43,593 bases of DNA from Gammaproteobacteria bacterium (GTDB taxonomy: Bacteria > Pseudomonadota > Gammaproteobacteria > Enterobacterales > GCA-2746155): the NCBI GenBank assembly GCA_002746155.1, contig NVWF01000011.1:771-44363 (forward strand). The letters run 5' to 3'. Below the pieces are notes generated by a model. That model was not told the DNA's origin and searched no databases. It saw nothing but the letters and a program-made list of their open reading frames with translations. This document shows, piece by piece, positions 1,898-17,710 of the stretch. Made by a program: the position numbers and the translations under genes. The number at the start of each line of letters is the position of its first letter. The first letter of the stretch is position 1.

Positions 1898-4174
1898 ATG
1901 TTATCGATCTTGCGCTCAATAATTCATGCTGTTAATGCAGCAGAAGGTCTGCAGCAGACCTTTGATGTTATTGTAAGTGAAATAAGTCGAGCAATAAAAA
2001 CTGATATTTGCTCTGTCTATTTGCGTAATAAAGACGATAACAGTCATTTTCTAGTGGCAAATTTTGGTTTTAATCCCACTAAGACCATTAAAACAATCGT
2101 ACCTGCTGGTAAAGGAATTATCAGCCTAATCAGTCAAAAAGAAGAGCCTCTTAAGTTTGCTGAAGGCAGCTCCCATCAAGCCTTTTTTGAAATTCCCAAT
2201 AGTGGTGAAGACCAAGCCCATGCCTTTTTGGGCGTTCCAATAATTCATCGCCGTGAATGCTTAGGTGTTTTAGTTGTACAAAGAAAATCCCAAGAAATTT
2301 TCAGTGAACAAGACGAAGCATTTTTAGTCACTTTGAGTGCTCAGCTCGCTGGTATTATTGCCAATGCAGAGTTACGTAATCTCATTGAATCGAAAAATCG
2401 ACCTAAGATATCAACACAATTTAAAGCAAGTTCGAGCACCTCAGGTATAGGTATTGGTAAAGGTTGGGTAGTGTCTGTTGGGACATCACTATCCAGCCTC
2501 CCAAAACGTCTAACTAAGCATCCGGAACTGGAGATTAAACAATTACGTAAGGCCATGTCTCGTTCGAGAAAGGATATTCGTGATTTAGCCTCCACCCTAT
2601 CAAAGTCTCTTGCAAAAAATGAACTCGCTCTATTTGCGGCTTATGAGCAACTGCTTAGTCATAATAGTCTGGGAAAAAAAATTGAGCGTCTAATCAAGGC
2701 AGAAAAATTTACAGCTGCCACAGCTCTGCGAAAGGTTATCGATGAAAATGTTAAGCGTTTTACCGCCATGGACGATCCCTACTTAAGAGAGAGGGCCACA
2801 GATATTCTCGATTTAGGGCGAAGAGTCCTCAGTCATTTGCAGCAGAAAAACCTAGCATTGAAAAACTTTCCAAAACGTACAATCCTCATTTCAGATCAAG
2901 TAACTTCAGCCATGATTGCAGAAGTTCCACCAAAACAATTGGTTGGCATCATATCTTTAAAGGGATCGTCTTCCTCCCATGCTGCCATCCTTGCTCGTTC
3001 CCTAGGTATTCCTGCTTTGATGGGGCTTAGAGATTGTCCCATTGAAGTGCTTGAGTCTAAATCACTCATCGTCGATGGCTATAAAAGTTTTTTGTTTGTT
3101 AAACCAGCAAGAGCCTTACTTGGACAATATAAGCAGCTTCAAGTTGATGAACAGAAAATGCTTGAAGATCTACATCATACGTCAATAAAAACCACCACAA
3201 CCCTTGATGGTGTGAATATTCCTTTGATGATCAATTGTGGTTTACAAGCAGACTTAGAAAATGAATTAGAAGCTACAGTGGATGGAGTCGGATTATTTAG
3301 AACAGAATATCCATTTATGCAAAGCGAGCGTTTTCCCAGTGAAGAAGAGCAGAGGAAACTTTACCGAGGTATTTTAGAGAGCTTTCAGGGCAAACCTGTG
3401 GTGATCCGTAGTCTTGATATAGGTGGCGATAAATCCCTCCCATATTTTCCAATTGAAGAGGAAAACCCCTTCCTTGGTTGGCGTGGTATTCGGATTACCC
3501 TTGACCATCCAGAAATTTTTCATACTCAAATTCGAGCCATGATGATGGCAAATGTAGGACTTGGAAACTTACATATTTCACTACCCATGATTTCTACGTT
3601 ATCTGAGATTGATAAAAGTCTGCAACAAATTGAGCAGATTTATAGTGAGATCAAAGTTCAGCATAATTACAGTGATGATGAGTTTATTTATCCAAAAATA
3701 GGTATCGTAATAGAGGTGCCCTCAGCCGTTTATCAAATTAGAGCCATCGCTAGGCGTGCTGACTTTCTAACCATTGGTAGTAATGATTTAACCCAATATA
3801 TGTTTGCAGTGGATCGTAATAATACCCGTGTCTCCTATCTTTACAAAACACTACATCCAGCCATGCTATTGGCTATTTTAGAAATTGCCGATGCTGGAAA
3901 TGCAGAAAAAATCCCAGTACATATTTGTGGAGAGATAGCGGGCGATCCCATGGCAACAATTGTCTTGTTGGCCTTAGGCGTCACTACCTTAAGCATGAAT
4001 ATTCATTCCATTCCTAAGGTAAGAAGAGTTATTCAAAAATTCAAGATGTCCGATGCTTCCCATATCTTGGCAAAAACATTGAGTTATGAAACTTCCTTTG
4101 AAATAAGGCAATATCTCACCAAGGTTTTACAAGACAGGGGCTTGGCTGATTTGGTGGATCCTGGTCATCATTAA
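1898..4174 (+). CDS. ptsP: Phosphoenolpyruvate-protein phosphotransferase PtsP (EI-Ntr), GAF domain + PEP-utilizing enzyme domains
   Basis: N-terminal GAF-like region, 'GSSSSHAAILARSLGIPALMG' phospho-His domain, PEP-binding C-terminal 'GSNDLTQYMFAVDRNN', 'HICGEIAGDP'. Confidence 0.95.
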   Translation: MLSILRSIIHAVNAAEGLQQTFDVIVSEISRAIKTDICSVYLRNKDDNSHFLVANFGFNPTKTIKTIVPAGKGIISLISQKEEPLKFAEGSSHQAFFEIPNSGEDQAHAFLGVPIIHRRECLGVLVVQRKSQEIFSEQDEAFLVTLSAQLAGIIANAELRNLIESKNRPKISTQFKASSSTSGIGIGKGWVVSVGTSLSSLPKRLTKHPELEIKQLRKAMSRSRKDIRDLASTLSKSLAKNELALFAAYEQLLSHNSLGKKIERLIKAEKFTAATALRKVIDENVKRFTAMDDPYLRERATDILDLGRRVLSHLQQKNLALKNFPKRTILISDQVTSAMIAEVPPKQLVGIISLKGSSSSHAAILARSLGIPALMGLRDCPIEVLESKSLIVDGYKSFLFVKPARALLGQYKQLQVDEQKMLEDLHHTSIKTTTTLDGVNIPLMINCGLQADLENELEATVDGVGLFRTEYPFMQSERFPSEEEQRKLYRGILESFQGKPVVIRSLDIGGDKSLPYFPIEEENPFLGWRGIRITLDHPEIFHTQIRAMMMANVGLGNLHISLPMISTLSEIDKSLQQIEQIYSEIKVQHNYSDDEFIYPKIGIVIEVPSAVYQIRAIARRADFLTIGSNDLTQYMFAVDRNNTRVSYLYKTLHPAMLLAILEIADAGNAEKIPVHICGEIAGDPMATIVLLALGVTTLSMNIHSIPKVRRVIQKFKMSDASHILAKTLSYETSFEIRQYLTKVLQDRGLADLVDPGHH

Positions 4175-4175
4175 T

Positions 4176-4202
4176 CTGCATCTTGAATGATGATGGGTTA
4201 TA
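4176..4202 (+). repeat. Intergenic motif copy A: ctgcatcttgaatgatgatgggttata
   Basis: Immediately after the ptsP stop; shares 22 identical nt (tgcatcttgaatgatgatgggt) with copy C. Confidence 0.8.
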
Positions 4203-4322
4203 GACGTGCTACATCAATCAATGGACCCTTCAAAACATATCACTGATAACAACTAACTATTATTGTCCAAGCTGTGTCTAGTAAGGTAGTATTAACATTA
4301 TCACCTGATTTATGGACATATA

Positions 4323-5330
4323 ATGCATAAAATGAGGTTAGTACTAATGGCTACTAATAAAGATCGAATTCAGTATTTGATGTTGTTTATTATTGTGCTT
4401 CTTCTCAGTGGTTGCGATTCAGGCGACAAAAATAAAAAATGGAACTCCACTGGAAAAGAGCTATCAACAACCGAAGTATCTGATAAGGTTACCATAACAA
4501 TTGGTGATATCGATCCTGATACTCCCACCAATAGAATGAAAAAAATATTGCCTCTGGCTCAACTTTTAGCACGGGAATTAGGTTGGCATGAATCTAGGGT
4601 AAAAATTAGAATTGTAAAGTCTATTGAAGATGCTACTCTGATGATAAAAAACAATCAAATTGACTTGCTTATGGACAGCAGTTTTCCTATTCTGCTGGTA
4701 CAAAAAAATAGTGACACGAAAATTATTCTTGAACTACCGGTAATGGGAAAAAGAACTTACAAGACATTATTTATCACATCCAAGTCCTCAGCTATAAAAT
4801 CTCTTGAAAATCTCAAAGGTAAAACGATTGCATTACAAGAGAGGTATTCTACTTCAGGGTATTTATTGCCGGCTTTTCACATCATTAGTAACGGTTACAA
4901 TCTCACCGACGTGACGACTCTAAGTGGTGGGGATACTATGCCAACAGATTCTATTGGTTATATTTTTTCTGGTGATGAAGAAAACACGCTTCTGTTAATT
5001 CGTAAAGATCTTGTGGCAGCAGGAGTGTTATCGAGCCATGATTACCAGCAACTGTCTGAACAGACAAAGAATGATATTGTAGTGATTGCAGAGACACAGG
5101 AGATACCGAGAAAATTTGCCGCAATTCGTTCAGGAGTTGATGAAGCGTTGCAGGAAAAAATCATTCATATTTTACTCTCAATTAATGATTCAGACCGAAT
5201 CAATATGGGAAAGGCTAATAGTTGGAAATGGCGCTTTGTACCTCTTGATGAGCAAAGTAGAACGGGTATCAAAGCTATAGAGAACATGATGCTTGTTCTA
5301 AATCCATTATTAGAAAATAGAGTCGAATGA
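4323..5330 (+). CDS. PhnD-type phosphate/phosphite/phosphonate substrate-binding lipoprotein (orphan; start may be 4335 or 4350)
   Basis: Lipobox 'LLLSGCDSG'; 'GDIDPDTPTNRMKKILPLAQLLARELG', 'LKGKTIALQERYSTSGYLLPAFHI' typical of PhnD-family SBPs; overlaps next gene by ATGA. Confidence 0.8.
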   Translation: MHKMRLVLMATNKDRIQYLMLFIIVLLLSGCDSGDKNKKWNSTGKELSTTEVSDKVTITIGDIDPDTPTNRMKKILPLAQLLARELGWHESRVKIRIVKSIEDATLMIKNNQIDLLMDSSFPILLVQKNSDTKIILELPVMGKRTYKTLFITSKSSAIKSLENLKGKTIALQERYSTSGYLLPAFHIISNGYNLTDVTTLSGGDTMPTDSIGYIFSGDEENTLLLIRKDLVAAGVLSSHDYQQLSEQTKNDIVVIAETQEIPRKFAAIRSGVDEALQEKIIHILLSINDSDRINMGKANSWKWRFVPLDEQSRTGIKAIENMMLVLNPLLENRVE

Positions 5331-7546
5331 AAAACGCACTGCTGACCAATCAAACGGTTCAAAGTAAAGATAAAACCTATAAGCTATTTGCTTTTCAATT
5401 CTCACTCACACTTACTCTTCTCGCAATGGGTATCTTATTTTATAAGGGAAGTAATTTAGATAAGAATACATTCAGTAATGCTCAAGAGCGTGGCACCTTC
5501 CTCTTTAATACATTAACAAATCAGATTAATGATTCTTTATATTTTAATAATGTTGAAGATATAAGAAAAATAACAGAATTGTTGATTCAGCAACAAGGAA
5601 TCAAACACGTAAGTATTTTCACTGAATCCGGACAATATTTATTGGATACAAAACAAGATCGAATCCCGTCAGGTTTTATTGATTCAGCGTTGCTCTCTCA
5701 GGTATCAAATTACACCGGACCCTCTAATAGATTGCTAGAGCATTCGGTAGAGTTTGTAGGTGGCATTTATTATAATACAACCCTAATGGGAGGTCTGTAT
5801 TTTGAACTCGATGTCAGTGCAGAACTGTTAGATGCTCAGCAATTATTTAAGCAACAACTACTTATTACTATTGCCTTACTCATACTAGCTTCAGGTTTAA
5901 GTTTTGCATTGGCAATGAACTTGGGCGCGACCAGGAAACTGAAAGTAGCAGAAGCAAACTTTCAACAGCTTATCGAACAATCACCCATTGCAACGGCTAT
6001 TTATGAGCCCAATGGTAGTCTTTATTATGGTAATCCGTCATTTTGGAAACTTATGCTGTTGGTTGACGATAGATTTAATTCTGTGGATTACCAGTACAAT
6101 ATATTTGAAGATAATTACTTTCAAGAACCAGCAATTAAATCACTTTTAGTTGAGGGTTTTTCTAGTCAAGCTGTTGAAATACCAGCCTTTGCTTATCGAA
6201 ATAAATCCCCACATGCTGATAATAGTATTAATCTGAAAGATAACATTAATCTTGAAATGTTATGGCTCGATTTAGAAGCTTTTCCGTTACTTGATGAAAC
6301 ATCAAAAGCCAATGGCGCAGTAGTTGTTTATCAGAATATCAGCAAGGAAAAAAATGCCGAGATTGAGCAAGCAGAAATAAACGCTCAACTTCAGCAAAGT
6401 CAAAAGTTAGAAAGTTTAGGTATTATGGCAGGTGGTATTGCACATGACTTTAATAACCTGCTGGCACCTATAATGGGTAATGCGGAATTAATTGAGTTAA
6501 CAATAGCAAATAAAGGCAAAGACGCTTCTATCCTTTCTTATGTTCAGAGCATACTCTCAGCTACAAAACGGGCTGCTGATCTTTGTGGCCAAATGTTAAC
6601 CTATGCAGGAAGTGCAGTTATTTCCAGGAGGCCTCTGAACCTGTCTATGGAAGTTGAAGAGTTAAATAATCTCTTTAAATCATCCCTATCAAAAAAGACC
6701 GTTTTTACTCAGAGTCTGCCTATGGATATACCACTTATTGATGCAGACCAAAATGAAATACGGCAAATTATTTTAAATCTTCTACTCAATGCTTCAGATG
6801 CCCTAGAAGGAGGTGTTGGTCATGTTTCTCTAAAAACAGGAACGACGGTAATTCCTGAAAAAGTGGCAAAACTGTTGCTTCCAATGCAAAACATGTCAGC
6901 AGGTAAGTACGTGTTTCTTGAAGTGGCTGATACAGGTTGCGGAATGAATAAGGAAACATTACAAAATTTATTCAATCCATTCTTTTCTACTAAATCGGAG
7001 GGAAGAGGACTTGGTTTGTCAGCTGTTCTTGGCATTGTAAAGCAACATTCTGCAGGGTTAAAGGTAGAGAGCAATCTAGGTGAAGGCACATTGTTTAGGC
7101 TCTACTTTCCAATTAGTGAGACTAAGACTCTATCTAAAGCAGAAAATAAAAAAGTCTTAAGAAGCAAGTATTCAGGGAAAATGCTTTTAGTGGATGATGA
7201 GCCCGATATCCTCAAGGTAGGCTCTGCCTTATTTAGCCTAATGGGGTTTAATGTTCACACAGCAAACAATGGTAGAGAGGCAGTTGAGAAATTTAAACAG
7301 TTACATTTAGAATTGGATGGTTTTGTTTTAGTTGTTTTAGATGTTTTAATGCCTGTGCTAGGCGGTGAAGAAGCATTGGAAGAAATTCGCTCGATCGATT
7401 CTAGCATTCCTGTGATAATGGCTAGCGGATTTAGTACCGGTGAGGTAATCGCTAGAGTTTCAACACTTGATAATGTGATAATGCTATCAAAACCCTATGG
7501 CCTAGATGACATCAAACTCGCTTTAAGTGAAGTTATACTTGGCTAA
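5327..7546 (+). CDS. Hybrid sensor histidine kinase (periplasmic sensor, PAS-like, HisKA, HATPase, C-terminal receiver)
   Basis: 'LGIMAGGIAHDFNNLLAPIMGNAELIE' H-box, 'NEIRQIILNLLLNASDALEG' N-box, 'GRGLGLSAVLGIV' G-box, receiver 'MLLVDDEPDILKVG...VLDVLMPVLGGEEALEEI'; no DNA-binding output domain. Confidence 0.92.
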   Translation: MKNALLTNQTVQSKDKTYKLFAFQFSLTLTLLAMGILFYKGSNLDKNTFSNAQERGTFLFNTLTNQINDSLYFNNVEDIRKITELLIQQQGIKHVSIFTESGQYLLDTKQDRIPSGFIDSALLSQVSNYTGPSNRLLEHSVEFVGGIYYNTTLMGGLYFELDVSAELLDAQQLFKQQLLITIALLILASGLSFALAMNLGATRKLKVAEANFQQLIEQSPIATAIYEPNGSLYYGNPSFWKLMLLVDDRFNSVDYQYNIFEDNYFQEPAIKSLLVEGFSSQAVEIPAFAYRNKSPHADNSINLKDNINLEMLWLDLEAFPLLDETSKANGAVVVYQNISKEKNAEIEQAEINAQLQQSQKLESLGIMAGGIAHDFNNLLAPIMGNAELIELTIANKGKDASILSYVQSILSATKRAADLCGQMLTYAGSAVISRRPLNLSMEVEELNNLFKSSLSKKTVFTQSLPMDIPLIDADQNEIRQIILNLLLNASDALEGGVGHVSLKTGTTVIPEKVAKLLLPMQNMSAGKYVFLEVADTGCGMNKETLQNLFNPFFSTKSEGRGLGLSAVLGIVKQHSAGLKVESNLGEGTLFRLYFPISETKTLSKAENKKVLRSKYSGKMLLVDDEPDILKVGSALFSLMGFNVHTANNGREAVEKFKQLHLELDGFVLVVLDVLMPVLGGEEALEEIRSIDSSIPVIMASGFSTGEVIARVSTLDNVIMLSKPYGLDDIKLALSEVILG

Positions 7547-7563
7547 TTTAAATAGAGAGTCCA

Positions 7564-7665
7564 ATGATAAAAATTTACTTACCTGCAACCCAAGTTCTAC
7601 TAGGTTTATTTATTTCAGCAATGATGCTGAAAGTATCACTATTTTGTAACTTCAACATAGCTTAA
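7564..7665 (+). other. Short ORF (33 aa, MIKIYLPATQVLLGLFISAMMLKVSLFCNFNIA), possible gene remnant
   Basis: ATG 7564 preceded by agagag; hydrophobic N-terminus-like peptide ending in TAA at 7663-7665, overlapping the 3' end of the convergent gene. Confidence 0.3.
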
Positions 7666-9756
7666 GTATCTCTGTTGAATCTCTCTAACATAGTTTACGG
7701 GCTCACTGCCACGGACATAACCATATCGAGCCTTGCTGTAATATTCAGGTTGCTGTAGCAATAGCATAGATTTTTCGACATTATTGAACCATTTGTTTCG
7801 ACTTAAGCCCATCTTCACCGCTAATTTTTGTGCATCCCTGACATGGCCAATACCTGCGTTGTAAGCGGCCAGTGCAAAGAACATCTTTTCTTCAAGTGGC
7901 AAGTCTATTGAAAAACGTGCGCGAGTCCAGTCCATATATTGGACTCCAGCTGCAATGGATTGCTGTGGCTGGGTTAAATCAATATAACCCATTTCTTTGC
8001 CTGTTCTAGGCAAAACTTGCATTAAGCCTTGAGCACCAGCTGCTGAGAGAGCATTCGGATCGAAACGGCTTTCCTGAAACATTTGTGAGGTGATCAGTCT
8101 CCAATCAAACTGATATTTTCTCGCATTATCTTTTACCAGCTGATCATAGGGTGATAGGTCAGAATCTGCGGAGATCCTCTGTTGACGATATCGTTTTAGA
8201 CGTTTTGCACTGGAGAAATATTTGCTTTTAATGACATTATAAAAAGTACCACGATACTCTTTTTTAATAAATGCATTAAGTGCCTTGAGCAGTTGCTGAT
8301 TATTATCACGGACGGCATAGGCATGAGGGACATTTTCTTTTAATGTCAGTGGTGTTACTAAGTTATTTCTGAAGCGCTTTTCGATGCTTATTAAATTACT
8401 GTCCGCGATGGTAAGGTCGATGGTTTTATCAGCAACCTGCGCAATCAATAATTCAGTGGGAATCGACTCACTACTTGCAATGACATTAACTCCGTGTTCT
8501 TTTGCAAGCTGTTGGGCCGTCTGCCAAAAAGCGCTTGATTGACGGATGCTTATGTTTCGACCTTGCAAATCTGCAAAGCTGTTAATGGGTGGGCTGTCCT
8601 TATGAGCTACTATTAATTCAGAGATGCGGTTATAACGTATGCTAAATTTCAGTTCTGACTGGCGTTCTTCAGTTCTGGAAAGCCCGGCGGCGATGACATC
8701 CCCCTTTCCTTGTTCAAGCAGCTTTATCATGTGTTGGTAATTATCCGCAACTATGATATCCAATCGAACATTCTGACGCTTAGCAAATTCACGCATTAGC
8801 TCATATTCAAACCCCATTAATGTACCTCTCCACAAAAAATATGTTTCTGGGCTGTTGCGGGTAATGATACGCAAGGCTAATTTTTTCTGTTTTATTTCAT
8901 TCAGATCCAGAGTGCGACTTAGCCTGGCTGTTTGGGTGATATGATGTACGGTAATAAAGTCATTCAACTTAGCCAGTAAACTGTTGTTCTGTTGATTGAC
9001 AGCCCAAGCTAGCTTCTTGCTGTCAGGAAAGTTCATCAGTGACTTTACATCATCACGATAACTCAGCAATGTACTGGCAGCTAATCCATCCAGTACTGTG
9101 TATTTTATAGTGCCCTTTATTAGAGAGTCTGCGATTTCATCAGAACTCTGGGCTTCTTTTAAAAGCTCTACTTGCCAGTTTTGAAAATGTTCCGTAATAC
9201 TATCGATATAAGAAGTGCCTTGAGGCACAGAGATTGTAATCATAGAGTCTTTAGTTGGTTTAGCTATTCCCTTTTTAGCGATTAAAACTTCTTTATCGAG
9301 TAGCAACGGGTGAGTGAAGTTCATTCTCGTTAAACGATTTTTGGTAATCGTTAAATGCCTTGGAATGATATCAGCTTTAAATTCATCTAAATGAGTAAAC
9401 ATTTGATCTAAATTTTTAACTTTAATCCACTGAATAGTTAACTTATGCTGCTCGACAAATTGGTTAAACAATTCAATATGATGCAGACTAGTTGAGCCTA
9501 AACGAGGCAAGCTACTCTCATCCTCCCATTCTAATTTTAGTGCCCTGATCACACCGGACTGTTTTATTTTGCTCCAGTTTTGCAATTTATTAGGGATAGG
9601 TTGATAGTTTTCTTCATTGACAGCGATGGGTTGATTTGAATTTGAATCATTTTGATCTTGACCACAAGAGACTATTATTAAAATTAGACTAAGTGAAAGC
9701 ATTGAACGATAGAATAATCTGTCTTTAAATAATGTATATTTTAATGTTGATAGCAT
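7639..9756 (-). CDS. MltF-like lipoprotein: two periplasmic substrate-binding (SBP_bac_3-like) domains + C-terminal SLT lytic transglycosylase (start likely 9756 or 9702, not 9879)
   Basis: Lipobox 'LSLILIIVSCGQ'; two SBP-like modules ('TITKNRLTRMNFTHPLLLDKEVLIAKKG' and 'AGLSRTEERQSELKFSIRYNRISELIVAHKDS'); SLT motifs 'MFQESRFDPNALSAAGAQGLMQVLPRTGKEMG' and 'ALAAYNAGIGHV'. Confidence 0.88.
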   Translation of the reverse strand: MLSTLKYTLFKDRLFYRSMLSLSLILIIVSCGQDQNDSNSNQPIAVNEENYQPIPNKLQNWSKIKQSGVIRALKLEWEDESSLPRLGSTSLHHIELFNQFVEQHKLTIQWIKVKNLDQMFTHLDEFKADIIPRHLTITKNRLTRMNFTHPLLLDKEVLIAKKGIAKPTKDSMITISVPQGTSYIDSITEHFQNWQVELLKEAQSSDEIADSLIKGTIKYTVLDGLAASTLLSYRDDVKSLMNFPDSKKLAWAVNQQNNSLLAKLNDFITVHHITQTARLSRTLDLNEIKQKKLALRIITRNSPETYFLWRGTLMGFEYELMREFAKRQNVRLDIIVADNYQHMIKLLEQGKGDVIAAGLSRTEERQSELKFSIRYNRISELIVAHKDSPPINSFADLQGRNISIRQSSAFWQTAQQLAKEHGVNVIASSESIPTELLIAQVADKTIDLTIADSNLISIEKRFRNNLVTPLTLKENVPHAYAVRDNNQQLLKALNAFIKKEYRGTFYNVIKSKYFSSAKRLKRYRQQRISADSDLSPYDQLVKDNARKYQFDWRLITSQMFQESRFDPNALSAAGAQGLMQVLPRTGKEMGYIDLTQPQQSIAAGVQYMDWTRARFSIDLPLEEKMFFALAAYNAGIGHVRDAQKLAVKMGLSRNKWFNNVEKSMLLLQQPEYYSKARYGYVRGSEPVNYVREIQQRYLSYVEVTK

Positions 9757-9911
9757 TTTGGAAGTGACCTTTGTTGACTCAAACGAAATTATTAGAAAGA
9801 TGATGCTTGGCAAGTTGACAGCTCGGAGAATAATAAACGTTATACTTAATCGACGCAACAGACTATCTTCGGAATCCATGGATAAAGTTGTTAGCAGTCA
9901 TGGGTATATAA

Positions 9912-10151
9912 ATGGCAGGCGATCCCATGGCAACAATTGTCTTGTTGGCCTTAGTCGTTACTAGTTTAAGCATGAATATTCATTCCATTCCTAAGGTAAG
10001 AAGAGTTATGCAAAAATTCAAGATGTCCGATGCTTCCCATATCATGGCAAAAACCTTGAGTTATGAAACGTCCTTTGAAATAAAGCAATATCTAACCGAG
10101 GTTTTACAGGACAGGGGCTTGGCTGATTTGGTGGATCCTGGTCACCATTAA
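9912..10151 (+). pseudogene. Truncated second copy of the ptsP 3' end (C-terminal ~79 aa)
   Basis: 9915-10162 aligns without gaps to 3940-4187 with about 13 substitutions by eye; encodes 'GDPMATIVLLALVVTSLSMNIHSIPKVRRVMQKFKMSDASHIMAKTLSYETSFEIKQYLTEVLQDRGLADLVDPGHH'. Confidence 0.95.
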
Positions 10152-10152
10152 T

Positions 10153-10180
10153 CTGCATCTTGAGGTAATATAGGTATATA
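10153..10180 (+). repeat. Intergenic motif copy B: ctgcatcttgaggtaatataggtatata
   Basis: Follows the truncated ptsP stop and sits 11 nt before the ATG of the DUF938 gene. Confidence 0.75.
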
Positions 10181-10191
10181 ATATTGCTATT

Positions 10192-10791
10192 ATGAATAAG
10201 CCCTTCAGCCAAGCAAGTGAAAATAATAAATCCCCGATCTTTAGTATAATCAAAGACTATTATACTCACACCAAGTTACTTTTAGAGATCGGTAGTGGTA
10301 CAGGGCAACACGCGGTGTTTTTTGCAGAAAAGTTCCCTCATCTCTTCTGGCAAACCTCAGATCAAAAGCAATATCTTGATGGTATTAATTTAACGCTAGA
10401 TGAATATCAAAACAATAATCTTGGGCGACCCTTGGAACTAGAAGTCACCCAACCTTCTTGGCCTATTGATCGTTGCGAAGGTGTTTTTTCAGCTAACACA
10501 AGTCATATCATGAGTTGGGAAATGGTTGAAAAAATGTTCTCTGGTGTAGGCCAGATTTTAACAGCTGAGGGTTATTTCTGTCTTTATGGCCCTTTTAATT
10601 TTGATAGAAAATTTACCTCTAGCAGTAACGAGGCATTTGACAAGATGTTAAGAGAAAGGGATCCGAACTCTGGTTTAAGAGACTTTGAAGCAATTGAAGA
10701 AATGGCAGATGAAAAAGGTCTCATCTTCGTAGATCGACACAATATGCCAGCCAACAATAACATTCTTGTATGGCAGCCCAAAAAGCCATAA
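10192..10791 (+). CDS. DUF938 family SAM-dependent methyltransferase-like protein
   Basis: 'LLEIGSGTGQHAVFFAEKFPHLFWQTSDQ' SAM-binding motif; overall DUF938-like. Confidence 0.85.
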   Translation: MNKPFSQASENNKSPIFSIIKDYYTHTKLLLEIGSGTGQHAVFFAEKFPHLFWQTSDQKQYLDGINLTLDEYQNNNLGRPLELEVTQPSWPIDRCEGVFSANTSHIMSWEMVEKMFSGVGQILTAEGYFCLYGPFNFDRKFTSSSNEAFDKMLRERDPNSGLRDFEAIEEMADEKGLIFVDRHNMPANNNILVWQPKKP

Positions 10792-10852: not shown

Positions 10853-11656
10853 ATGCCTGAATTTGAATTACTGGAAATCAGCCTCTACCTTGTAACCGGT
10901 ACCTTTGCAGGTCTTCTTGCAGGTCTGTTAGGTGTGGGTGGTGGTTTATTTATTGTACCGGTATTACTCTTTACTTTACCTTTAGTGGGAGTCAATGATA
11001 CCCATTTAATGACAATTTGCGTTGCAACATCACTCTGTACAATTGTTGTTACTTCAATCTCCTCAGTGATAGCTCACCAAAAACATCAGGCTATTTTGTG
11101 GCCGGTATTTTGGCAATTTCTTCCAGGCATTGTTTTAGGCGCCCTACTAGGTTCTTATGTGGCCGTTGGTGTGTCAGAGCATTTACTGACAAATTTATTT
11201 GCAGTATCGGTTATTCTCATCGCAGTAAAGATGTTCTTTAAATTACAATTGAGTAGTGAAGTTACTCTTCCTGTAACCCCAGTTGTGATCGCAATTGGCA
11301 GTTTCATAGGTTGCTTATCAGCCATGATAGGTATAGGAGGTGGATCCTTAACTGTTCCTATCCTAAGCTACTGGAAAACGCCCATGGCTAAGGCCGTTGC
11401 TACTTCCTCAGCTTGTGGCTTGCCAATAGCCGTTGCAGGCACTCTGGGTTTCATCATTATGGGACAGCAACAGGCAGATCTACCAGCCTTTAGTAGTGGT
11501 TATGTTTATTGGCCCGCGGTTGGGGGAATTATTATTACTTCAGTCATCTTTGCACCAATTGGTGCTAAACTGGCTCACAAAATATCTGCACCCTTATTAT
11601 CAAAAATATTCGCCACTTTTTTACTGCTAGTGGGTACTAAGGTTTTACTCAATTAA
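10853..11656 (+). CDS. TSUP (TauE/SafE) family membrane transporter
   Basis: Glycine-rich 'AGLLAGLLGVGGGLFIVPVLLF' and 'SAMIGIGGGSLTVPILSYW' repeats with multiple TM segments. Confidence 0.92.
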   Translation: MPEFELLEISLYLVTGTFAGLLAGLLGVGGGLFIVPVLLFTLPLVGVNDTHLMTICVATSLCTIVVTSISSVIAHQKHQAILWPVFWQFLPGIVLGALLGSYVAVGVSEHLLTNLFAVSVILIAVKMFFKLQLSSEVTLPVTPVVIAIGSFIGCLSAMIGIGGGSLTVPILSYWKTPMAKAVATSSACGLPIAVAGTLGFIIMGQQQADLPAFSSGYVYWPAVGGIIITSVIFAPIGAKLAHKISAPLLSKIFATFLLLVGTKVLLN

Positions 11657-11681
11657 AAGAAACAATTAAAAGAGACTCTCA

Positions 11682-12500
11682 ATGGAAGCACCTTTAATAA
11701 ACCCCGATATCATATCCTTCGGCCCCCTTGAACTTTTTGGCATGACGCTCGGGCCCATAGGTCTTAAATGGTATGGCTTGATGTACATGCTTGGCTTACT
11801 TGCGGCTTGGGGTCTTGGCAATTACCGTGCGAAGTCATCTAGCAATAGCTGGGATAAAGATCAGGTTAGCGACATGATTTTTTATGGCTTTCTAGGCGTT
11901 GTTATAGGTGGACGGTTTGGCTACGTATTTTTCTATCATATGGACTTATTTCTAGCTGATCCTATCTATTTATTTCGTATCACCGAGGGCGGTATGTCAT
12001 TTCATGGGGGGTTTATTGGTGTCATGGCAGCTTTTTACTACTTCTCAAGAAAAACAGGTAAAAGCTTTTTTGAAATAAGTGATTTTTGTGCACCTTTTAT
12101 TCCTATTGGCTTAGGGTTTGGCCGTATTGGTAATTTTATCAATGGAGAGCTTTGGGGGCGAGTTGCGAGTCCTGATTTACCCTGGGCAATGAAGTTTCAC
12201 ACTGATCCAGATTTTTTACTACGTCATCCCTCTCAGCTTTACCAGTTTTTCCTAGAAGGAGTGGTTCTGTTTAGCCTGTTGTTTTGGTTTTCAATGAAAC
12301 CTCGACCAAGAATGGCCGTTTCGGGATTATTTATGGTGGGTTATGGATTACAACGCTTTATCATTGAATTTTTCAGACAGCCCGATGCTCACCTAGGATT
12401 ACTTTGGTTTAAATTAAGTATGGGACAACTACTCTCTGTTCCCATGATTATAATTGGTATCTTCTGGCTCAGGAAAGCCTATCAAAAGTCATCAAGCTGA
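11682..12500 (+). CDS. lgt: Prolipoprotein diacylglyceryl transferase
   Basis: 'GGMSFHGGFIGVMAA', 'RIGNFINGELWGR', 'HPSQLYQFFLEGV' signature motifs. Confidence 0.97.
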   Translation: MEAPLINPDIISFGPLELFGMTLGPIGLKWYGLMYMLGLLAAWGLGNYRAKSSSNSWDKDQVSDMIFYGFLGVVIGGRFGYVFFYHMDLFLADPIYLFRITEGGMSFHGGFIGVMAAFYYFSRKTGKSFFEISDFCAPFIPIGLGFGRIGNFINGELWGRVASPDLPWAMKFHTDPDFLLRHPSQLYQFFLEGVVLFSLLFWFSMKPRPRMAVSGLFMVGYGLQRFIIEFFRQPDAHLGLLWFKLSMGQLLSVPMIIIGIFWLRKAYQKSSS

Positions 12501-14902: not shown

Positions 14903-17710
14903 TTAAAGTTCTATTTTTTGCCAACCTGTGTCAGTTGAAATCACTTCAGCCATTGGCCAGTAATTATTATTAAGTTTTAAGGTAATTAGTCGCGCTCTAC
15001 CTGTGATATCCATGACCCTAAGTCTAACGGAGTCTCGGTCTCCTTTATTTGATACTGCCTTAATAAAGCTGTCTAAATTGGGGGTAGGTTTTTCATCGAC
15101 CTCTGTGATCAATAATCCTCGAATACCAAAATGCTGAGCGGGAGAACCAAAATTCTGACGAGATACATAGACACCTGGTTGGTCTATACCAAAACGTGTT
15201 CGTAGTGCACGGTGAGGTTCTTGTAAATATCCTCCTGCCCAAACTAACACTCTATTTGTGCCTTTACCGCTTACGGTGACTGTGTCCAAATCAATTTCAA
15301 GGACCTTATCATCACGGGCGATGGTAAGTTTGACACTGCTCTTTTGGGCGGCAAACTCTACATCTCTGAAACTGGTTAGAATTTTCCCATCAAGGGAAAG
15401 TAGTAAATCGCCTGACTTTAATAGTTTAGCTGCCGGTGATCCTTTCCAGGTATTGTTGACAGTGAGAAGTTGGTGATTATCAGGATTCTTTTTAGCAATT
15501 TTTTCCAACCAGTCCTCAGGTATACCTAAACGTCTAGCTAATACAAAAGAAACCATTGACCATTCTACTTCTAAAGACTGCAAGGTACCCGTACCTGAAG
15601 CATGTAGTGCTAGAAGGTCAGTGATATGTTGACTGGGTACAGCCCAGGAATTTTTCTTACCCGAACGACCATTGGATTTAAAGTCGAGGATCATCGCAAC
15701 CACTTCACCCTCGTCATTAAGAAAAACACCACTGGAATGTGAGTAGGGACTATCGGTTGAAATTACCATCATATTAGCATCTTGAAATCTTGCTGTTTGA
15801 GATGCGTTAACCTGGAGAGGACCAAGGGTTGATACCTTTCTACTTTGTACTAGTATCTTATAGTTGTAATTAGTACCAGCTGCGTGAATGAGATCACCAA
15901 ACTTGGGCTCAACATTGGATATTTTTGCTGCTGCAACTGGGGTGGCCCCAAGCAATTTAGGGTCATAATGAAGCAGTGCCATATTATGTAACGGGTGAAG
16001 AAAAACAACCTCTGCGGGAATTTGTATTGAGCCTGCAAAAGTTATTAGCACTTCACCGATACTCGAAGGAACGGTAGTTCGGTCTACCATAACCAAACCA
16101 TTTTTCTCATCTACGATGAGGCCTGAACCTGAAGTGCGACTGCTGACTATTTCATCTATGGCATAGGGTGTAGTGAAATTAACCCAAACCAAGGAGGGGG
16201 CAATTTTGTTTGCCAGCTCACTTTCTTGTTTTGGATGTTGAGCATTTTGTATTTCTAACGGTTCTTTAGGAACTGCGTCTGGTAGGGACTCACACAACCA
16301 ATCACCTGAGACCTTGTCATAATCACATACTTTAGTTGTGTGCCAATGGCGATCATTTTTAACAATGGATAAGGAGTGATTATGGGGATCTCTTATGCCA
16401 AAATAACGCACGGGAAACTCCTTACCATCAGGAATATCTTGAAGGGCTTTTATGGCATCATCAAGATTATCTATAACTTGTTTATTTATACTGCTGATAA
16501 CCGAACCGGCGCCAATACCTGAGCTACCAAACATATATCCACCTGATGCTAAAACTACGCCCCTAATAGGACGATTCAAATGACGTGCTTGCTGATAACT
16601 TAGGTTATGTAAAACGGCCCGCCCTATTTCGAGATAGCGAGTAGGTGTGATCTTTGCAAGGGAGCCAACAGTAACCTCGCCACTCATTAATCGACCACCG
16701 CGAAGAAATTCTAGCTGAATGGTCTCTCCCACCTGCTGATCTAAATAAGCTTCTAGGGGAATAAAGGTGCTGATGAGTTGTCCATCGATGCGAAATAAAA
16801 TATCCCCAGGCTCCAGTAAATCTGCTGCAGGACCTTCAGGTAATATATGCTCAACCACCAAAGCACCTTGAGATTCAGGATCTTCTTCTCTAAAACTATC
16901 TTCTTCTTTAGCTTTTAATCCAAGCCGAACAAGTTCAGCGTAACTTTTATGGATAAAGGTTGTTTCAAGGGTGCCTCGAATTACCGTTTTTCCCGCTTGA
17001 ATAAGTTCCAGTGCATGCTTAGCACGGTCAAGGGGGAAAAACATATTGGTATTGGCACTAAAAGCACCACCCGCTTGAAGAGCAATTACCTTACCCTGTT
17101 CATTGATAACGGGTGATCCCGATGAGCCTCCACTGGCACCACTTGCTGCTTGAAAGTAGAAGGTGTTGAAATCATTAAAGCGATGTAAACCATAATCTGG
17201 TGCTTGACGAGTAAGTCTTGCCAGAGTGCCATCTAAAATAGAAAGTTTTTCACCAGCATCATTGCCAATAACTCTTATCTCCACACCTACACTGGCAAGA
17301 TCCGGTCGCAAGTCTAGGGAGTTCACTGTGAGATGTCGCAGTTTTTGTGGATCGTATTGAAAAAAGCCAAAATCGTGCACCGGATCGCGGTAAATTGGTT
17401 TTAGATCCACTTCTTCTTGATTGATAAATATTGCTGTGGCTGTAACTGGGCCTGGTTGAACGATATGTCTGTTAGTCATGATAATACCGCGCTCAGCATC
17501 AACGATGAAGCCTGTTCCCTGACTAATCATGGGACGAGAGGTTTCAAAAGCTCTAGTGACCTCAAGCTGGATAGAAACTATCGAGCTGGTGATCTTATCG
17601 ATGGTATTTTTCCAACTAGTCGATTCTGCAAAAACTGTCGAACTTGCTAGACCAATTTGGATAAAAATCCCGAAAAAACTCAAGCAAACTAATTTTTTTA
17701 AAAACTTCAT
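14903..17710 (-). CDS. Secreted twin-domain HtrA/Deg-type serine protease with PDZ-like repeats, Nma111/DEG7-like
   Basis: Signal peptide; first protease domain with H ('MTNRHIV'), D ('YRDPVHDFGF'), S ('ASGGSSGSPV'); second trypsin-like domain 'GSGLIVDEKNGLVMVDRTTVP...HPLHNMALLHYDP...YSHSSGVFLND' with degenerate triad; PDZ-like segments after each. Confidence 0.88.
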   Translation of the reverse strand: MKFLKKLVCLSFFGIFIQIGLASSTVFAESTSWKNTIDKITSSIVSIQLEVTRAFETSRPMISQGTGFIVDAERGIIMTNRHIVQPGPVTATAIFINQEEVDLKPIYRDPVHDFGFFQYDPQKLRHLTVNSLDLRPDLASVGVEIRVIGNDAGEKLSILDGTLARLTRQAPDYGLHRFNDFNTFYFQAASGASGGSSGSPVINEQGKVIALQAGGAFSANTNMFFPLDRAKHALELIQAGKTVIRGTLETTFIHKSYAELVRLGLKAKEEDSFREEDPESQGALVVEHILPEGPAADLLEPGDILFRIDGQLISTFIPLEAYLDQQVGETIQLEFLRGGRLMSGEVTVGSLAKITPTRYLEIGRAVLHNLSYQQARHLNRPIRGVVLASGGYMFGSSGIGAGSVISSINKQVIDNLDDAIKALQDIPDGKEFPVRYFGIRDPHNHSLSIVKNDRHWHTTKVCDYDKVSGDWLCESLPDAVPKEPLEIQNAQHPKQESELANKIAPSLVWVNFTTPYAIDEIVSSRTSGSGLIVDEKNGLVMVDRTTVPSSIGEVLITFAGSIQIPAEVVFLHPLHNMALLHYDPKLLGATPVAAAKISNVEPKFGDLIHAAGTNYNYKILVQSRKVSTLGPLQVNASQTARFQDANMMVISTDSPYSHSSGVFLNDEGEVVAMILDFKSNGRSGKKNSWAVPSQHITDLLALHASGTGTLQSLEVEWSMVSFVLARRLGIPEDWLEKIAKKNPDNHQLLTVNNTWKGSPAAKLLKSGDLLLSLDGKILTSFRDVEFAAQKSSVKLTIARDDKVLEIDLDTVTVSGKGTNRVLVWAGGYLQEPHRALRTRFGIDQPGVYVSRQNFGSPAQHFGIRGLLITEVDEKPTPNLDSFIKAVSNKGDRDSVRLRVMDITGRARLITLKLNNNYWPMAEVISTDTGWQKIEL

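Follow-up and report, generated by a model that had tools for sequence, protein, structure and literature searches.

A block of envelope-related genes between two diverged ptsP 3' ends, with a parE remnant at its left junction, suggests insertion of foreign DNA at ptsP

We propose an old insertion at ptsP in this gammaproteobacterial genome, in which DNA of foreign origin brought a ptsP 3' end of its own, a reading to which we assign a probability of roughly 0.6. The window, the whole 43.6-kb stretch of DNA that was analysed (43,593 nucleotides), holds an intact ptsP, a block of three genes, and a second, headless ptsP 3' end (Table 1). The block lacks an integrase and lies within the conserved housekeeping cluster rppH-ptsP-lgt-thyA, with its target gene still whole; the traces it has left are a footprint diverged by about 5% and the scar of a toxin gene. 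This kind of event is already known, while the parE scar is newly seen here.

Table 1. Features at and around the ptsP locus, in window coordinates.
Feature	Position	Strand	Basis
ptsP (PEP-protein phosphotransferase with GAF domain), intact	1898..4174	+	NCBIfam NF008283, 776.6 bits vs cutoff 583; Pfam GAF, PEP-utilizers
Left repeat copy: ptsP 3' end (last 78 codons) plus 12 nt past the stop	3935..4186	+	Repeat search, BLAST
parE toxin gene 3'-end remnant, reads WVIDVLHQSMDPSKHITDNN*	4194..4256	+	84% over 43 bp to G000:C9:28565-28607; ParE C-termini
PhnD-like binding lipoprotein, no adjacent ABC transporter genes	4323..5330	+	PF12974, 5.1e-40; under the NCBIfam PhnD cutoff
Membrane hybrid histidine kinase with receiver	5327..7546	+	HisKA, HATPase_c, Response_reg
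MltF-like lytic transglycosylase lipoprotein with extra N-terminal binding-protein region	7639..9879	-	NF008112; SBP_bac_3, SLT
Right repeat copy: headless ptsP 3' end (~80 codons), pseudogene-like	9912..10163	+	Repeat, alignment with relatives
DUF938 methyltransferase-like gene	10192..10791	+	PF06080; adjoins TSUP in L077, L080, L081, L084
TSUP and lgt, native neighbours directly 3' of ptsP in relatives	10853..12500	+	Order-level loci

The two ptsP ends form a gapless direct repeat of 252 nt at 94% identity, and the repeat search returned no second direct repeat of at least 28 nt in the window. The earlier note had described an ungapped repeat of about 95% with some 13 substitutions, which our coordinates bear out. 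By whole-genome BLAST, positions 3940-4187 occur at only two places in the genome, at 95% identity. The left edge of the identity falls at about 3935-3941 (9912-9918 in the right copy); on the other side it extends 12 nt beyond the ptsP stop codon (TCTGCATCTTGA) and breaks at 4186/10163. Across the coding part (3941-4174 against 9918-10151) there are 13 substitutions, distributed 2/3/8 over codon positions 1/2/3, comprising 6 transitions and 7 transversions and, by hand count, 7 synonymous and 6 amino-acid-changing differences. The frame of the right copy is open from 9912 to 10151, contains an in-frame ATG, and shows neither stop codons nor indels. A short inverted repeat, CAACAA-ttgtc-TTGTTG (3952-3968), lies close to where the direct repeat begins, within its first perfectly identical stretch, and may be due to chance.

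To polarize these differences, both ends were aligned with 29 PtsP proteins from the same order. Six aligned residues differ between the copies, and at four of them the intact copy has the residue of the relatives. A Gly conserved in 28 of the 29 is kept in the intact copy and replaced by Val in the truncated one, and the Ile, Leu, and Arg of the intact copy, each the commonest or joint commonest residue among the relatives, correspond to Met, Met, and Lys. The remaining two differences, T/S and K/E, are ambiguous in polarity against these 29 proteins. All four polarisable changes (G->V, I->M, L->M, R->K) sit in the truncated copy, which therefore evolves like a pseudogene.

The codon positions also bear on when the two ends diverged. 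We used a simple simulation to estimate the probability of at least 8 third-position differences among ~13, with few accepted runs (165-467 per setting). That probability was 0.11-0.16 for copies still identical when the insertion took place, 0.49-0.70 when three quarters of their divergence was older than the insertion, and 0.71-0.97 when all of it was. The observed excess (8 of 13) thus weakly favors two ptsP alleles that had already diverged before the insertion. The divergence of about 5% had earlier been read as speaking against a very recent tandem duplication; this holds, and the same figure carries no argument against an old one.

An "intergenic motif" had been noted directly after the intact ptsP. 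The motif is present; what had been overlooked is its identity as the 3' end of a parE gene. Positions 4200-4242 match the end of an open reading frame on another contig of the same genome (G000:C9; E 1.2e-4), whose product is a ParE (PF05016, 1.1e-15) with ParD encoded upstream (PF03693, 3.6e-22); this intact best match spans G000:C9:28319-28612 (L071). The remnant can be compared with the intact ParE end, IIDVLHQSMDPSRHISN*, and a Leu-His-x-x-Met core is common to the remnant and several other ParE ends from this genome and its relatives. The match starts ~10 nt beyond the end of the repeat. Complete ParD and ParE genes are absent at the left junction, so that, while its terminal codons match the ParE of the genome's own parDE pair, the locus differs from a parDE module in retaining only ~17 codons of the toxin gene, with no antitoxin gene adjoining. 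The left junction of the block is therefore what remains of a decapitated parE, its tail. Since parDE modules often travel on mobile DNA, the remnant suggests leftover element DNA, and its position right after the intact ptsP suggests, in turn, that the inserted DNA may once have borne a toxin-antitoxin module. Elsewhere in the genome, two equal-scoring ParE matches with identical C-termini (G000:C1:330-614 and C36:7480-7764, one of them near a contig end) look like a recent duplicate or mobile copy.

We then compared 51 ptsP loci from the same order, most with ~1.5 kb of downstream DNA. TSUP is the next recognised gene after ptsP in 26 loci and lgt in another 12; the other 13 have neither within reach, and those of the 13 that were examined have unrelated genes after ptsP. 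PhnD, kinase, and MltF-like genes follow ptsP in 0/51 within the ~1.5 kb. Loci in which ptsP runs into TSUP without the block, which the earlier note had proposed to look for, are thus seen at the order level. Because TSUP or lgt follows ptsP in 38 of the 51 loci and the block in none, the comparison supports the block being an addition to the locus. The sole other genome of the genus examined (G001) has no PhnD, only a 32% MltF match with no two-part MltF-like protein, and no DUF938 or lgt match; its contig stops 38 codons into ptsP, an assembly gap that makes these absences uninformative for the locus.

Past the right repeat copy, the order DUF938, TSUP, lgt, thyA, folA is the housekeeping order reported earlier. 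DUF938 generally lies elsewhere in order relatives, with four exceptions (L077, L080, L081, L084), and because it adjoins TSUP in those loci, the fragment-DUF938-TSUP-lgt segment plausibly represents the native right flank. The same four loci disfavor DUF938 as part of the import.

Pfam and NCBIfam agree with the contents first proposed for the block, namely a PhnD lipoprotein, a hybrid kinase, and a lipoprotein with two binding-protein regions and an SLT domain. The PhnD and kinase genes overlap by 4 nt and likely form an operon, with the MltF-like gene on the opposite strand and probably starting near 9756. Its product scores 407.6 bits against the NF008112 cutoff of 354 over residues 325-743, displaying the MltF architecture of SBP_bac_3 plus SLT at the curated score, with the N-terminal extra region outside the family. 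Judged from domains only, the cargo probably combines a two-component sensor coupled to a binding protein with an envelope murein enzyme. No integrase, tRNA, or Rfam RNA was found in the block region, and the block open reading frames, their three genes assigned via Pfam and NCBIfam, include no integrase or recombinase, as the earlier note had remarked. We rejected a foreign composition for the block: its GC content (36.5-39.0%) is inside the range of the other window genes and its codon usage is ordinary (z of -0.74, 0.26, and -2.71), the mild deviation of the MltF-like gene, the last of these values, being shared with mutH (-2.58).

Searches for the block genes elsewhere returned only scattered relatives. 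The PhnD protein has no match at E<=1e-30 in the 368 other sampled genomes of the class (369 in total). Its best full-length match among order relatives (30%, G016) is followed by a gene for a GGDEF/EAL protein and no kinase, as judged by eye from motifs. The nearest MltF-like relative (59%, G040) has a different gene context, with ptsP, PhnD, and kinase homologues absent from the surrounding 20 kb, and MltF-like relatives at about 37-59% are patchy in the order (G040, G011, G048, G027, G055, G002). Because the G016 and G040 matches sit in other contexts, the PhnD-kinase and MltF-like modules appear patchy and unlinked outside this block. A scan of the contig collection with PtsP gave just three enzymes, all of them distant and from Clostridia-type genomes, viral contigs gave no match for the MltF-like protein or PtsP, and the PhnD and transglycosylase matches among plasmids were all distant and generic. 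The class, order, contig, plasmid, and viral collections searched yielded no donor genome and no other carrier of the block.

A whole gene, then cargo, then a headless 3' end ahead of native downstream genes is the layout expected when incoming DNA brings a copy of the end of the gene that it enters. The closest known parallel is prophage e14 in icd of Escherichia coli K-12, which leaves an icdC remnant, with 165 bp duplicated, 12 nt changes, and the frame intact (PMC11148124, PMC6379469). There, the element sits toward the 3' end of a metabolic gene, for which it provides a new terminus, and the displaced end lies beyond the element; here, an intact ptsP lies on the left and a headless copy on the right, and the left end would be the element-borne one. 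The ptsP repeat is longer (252 nt, including the 12 nt past the stop), and e14 has an integrase and phage genes, whereas the ptsP block has neither, only three cargo genes and the parE remnant. For ptsP, the site is empty at the order level (0/51 with the block), and the same-genus genome has its assembly gap there. A second parallel, in which one end joins by homology and the other illegitimately, without a recombinase, has been described for competent species receiving linear DNA and for E. coli conjugation (PMC3240628). Its likeness to ptsP, one homologous and one unrelated joint, is drawn from the outcome only. The geometry around ptsP is compatible with one joint of shared homology and one between unrelated sequences.

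On this basis, the ancestor would have had ptsP followed by DUF938-TSUP-lgt. The incoming molecule would have brought the three cargo genes (PhnD, hybrid kinase, MltF-like), a parDE module, and a ptsP 3' end of its own. Entering at the ptsP 3' end, it would have made ptsP whole again on the left while stranding the native 3' end on the right, upstream of DUF938. Entry may have been an integrase-type insertion as for e14 in icd, with the integrase deleted afterwards, or a one-sided integration by single crossover or homology-facilitated illegitimate recombination. Most of parDE, along with any recombinase, would then have been lost by deletion. We favor import on the unique bracketing repeat, the empty order-level loci, the derived truncated copy, the parE remnant, the rare PhnD, and the third-position excess. 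Counted against it are the missing recombinase, the ordinary composition, the weak codon-position test, and the failure to find a donor or another carrier of the block.

Import had been inferred in the earlier note, and part of that inference is supported: the block was added, native genes follow a decaying truncated copy, and a parE remnant is present. Its weaker part is the import of an intact 3' end, since a duplicate that was identical and then decayed fits nearly as well. Such a duplicate would arise if the block was captured where the DNA had broken close to the end of ptsP, with ~250 bp of target doubled during repair and the right copy decaying afterwards. We consider this possible, at well below even odds. 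It accommodates the location of every polarisable amino-acid change in the truncated copy and the native-like composition of the block, and 6 changing versus 7 silent differences resemble one neutral plus one constrained copy; the third-position excess has P=0.11-0.16 under this model. That excess, however, is somewhat better fitted by partly pre-insertion divergence, and DNA of an incoming element is suggested by the parE end next to the repeat, although captured DNA of this type would leave the same picture.

The two other explanations are far less probable. Tandem duplication of the ptsP end together with the block, followed by loss of the second block, would also yield a block-bracketing repeat, but it requires a resident block, a long duplication, and a precise deletion, and the genome holds no trace of a second block copy; we regard it as very improbable. 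Marginally less credible still is an artefact joining two strain variants, a concern raised by the draft state of the genome (52 contigs, 90% complete). Against it, the left joint of the truncated copy lies in unique DNA, both copies fall within a single contig of 115 kb, and changes of the pseudogene type are seen in the right copy.

Beyond import at this one locus, an undescribed family of integrative elements might use the ptsP 3' end for attachment, bringing along envelope-sensing cargo and a substitute ptsP end, and the element seen here would be a grounded remnant; we think this doubtful and give it little weight. No paper tying ptsP to a genomic-island integration site was found in the literature searched. 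A general hotspot at the ptsP 3' end is unsupported, as TSUP or lgt comes immediately after ptsP in most relatives and other genes intervene only occasionally. If ptsP ends do recur as insertion points in related genomes, they would constitute a new integration site. In three of the loci where DUF938 adjoins TSUP (L077, L080, and L081; family f7, genomes of 2.3-2.5 Mb), DUF938 lies between an rppH-like nudix gene and TSUP-lgt, the expected place of ptsP, and these genomes give only weak PtsP matches (E about 1e-11). Farther downstream in the window, 14903-17710 encodes a 935-aa secreted protein that, by eye, looks like tandem trypsin/PDZ protease units.
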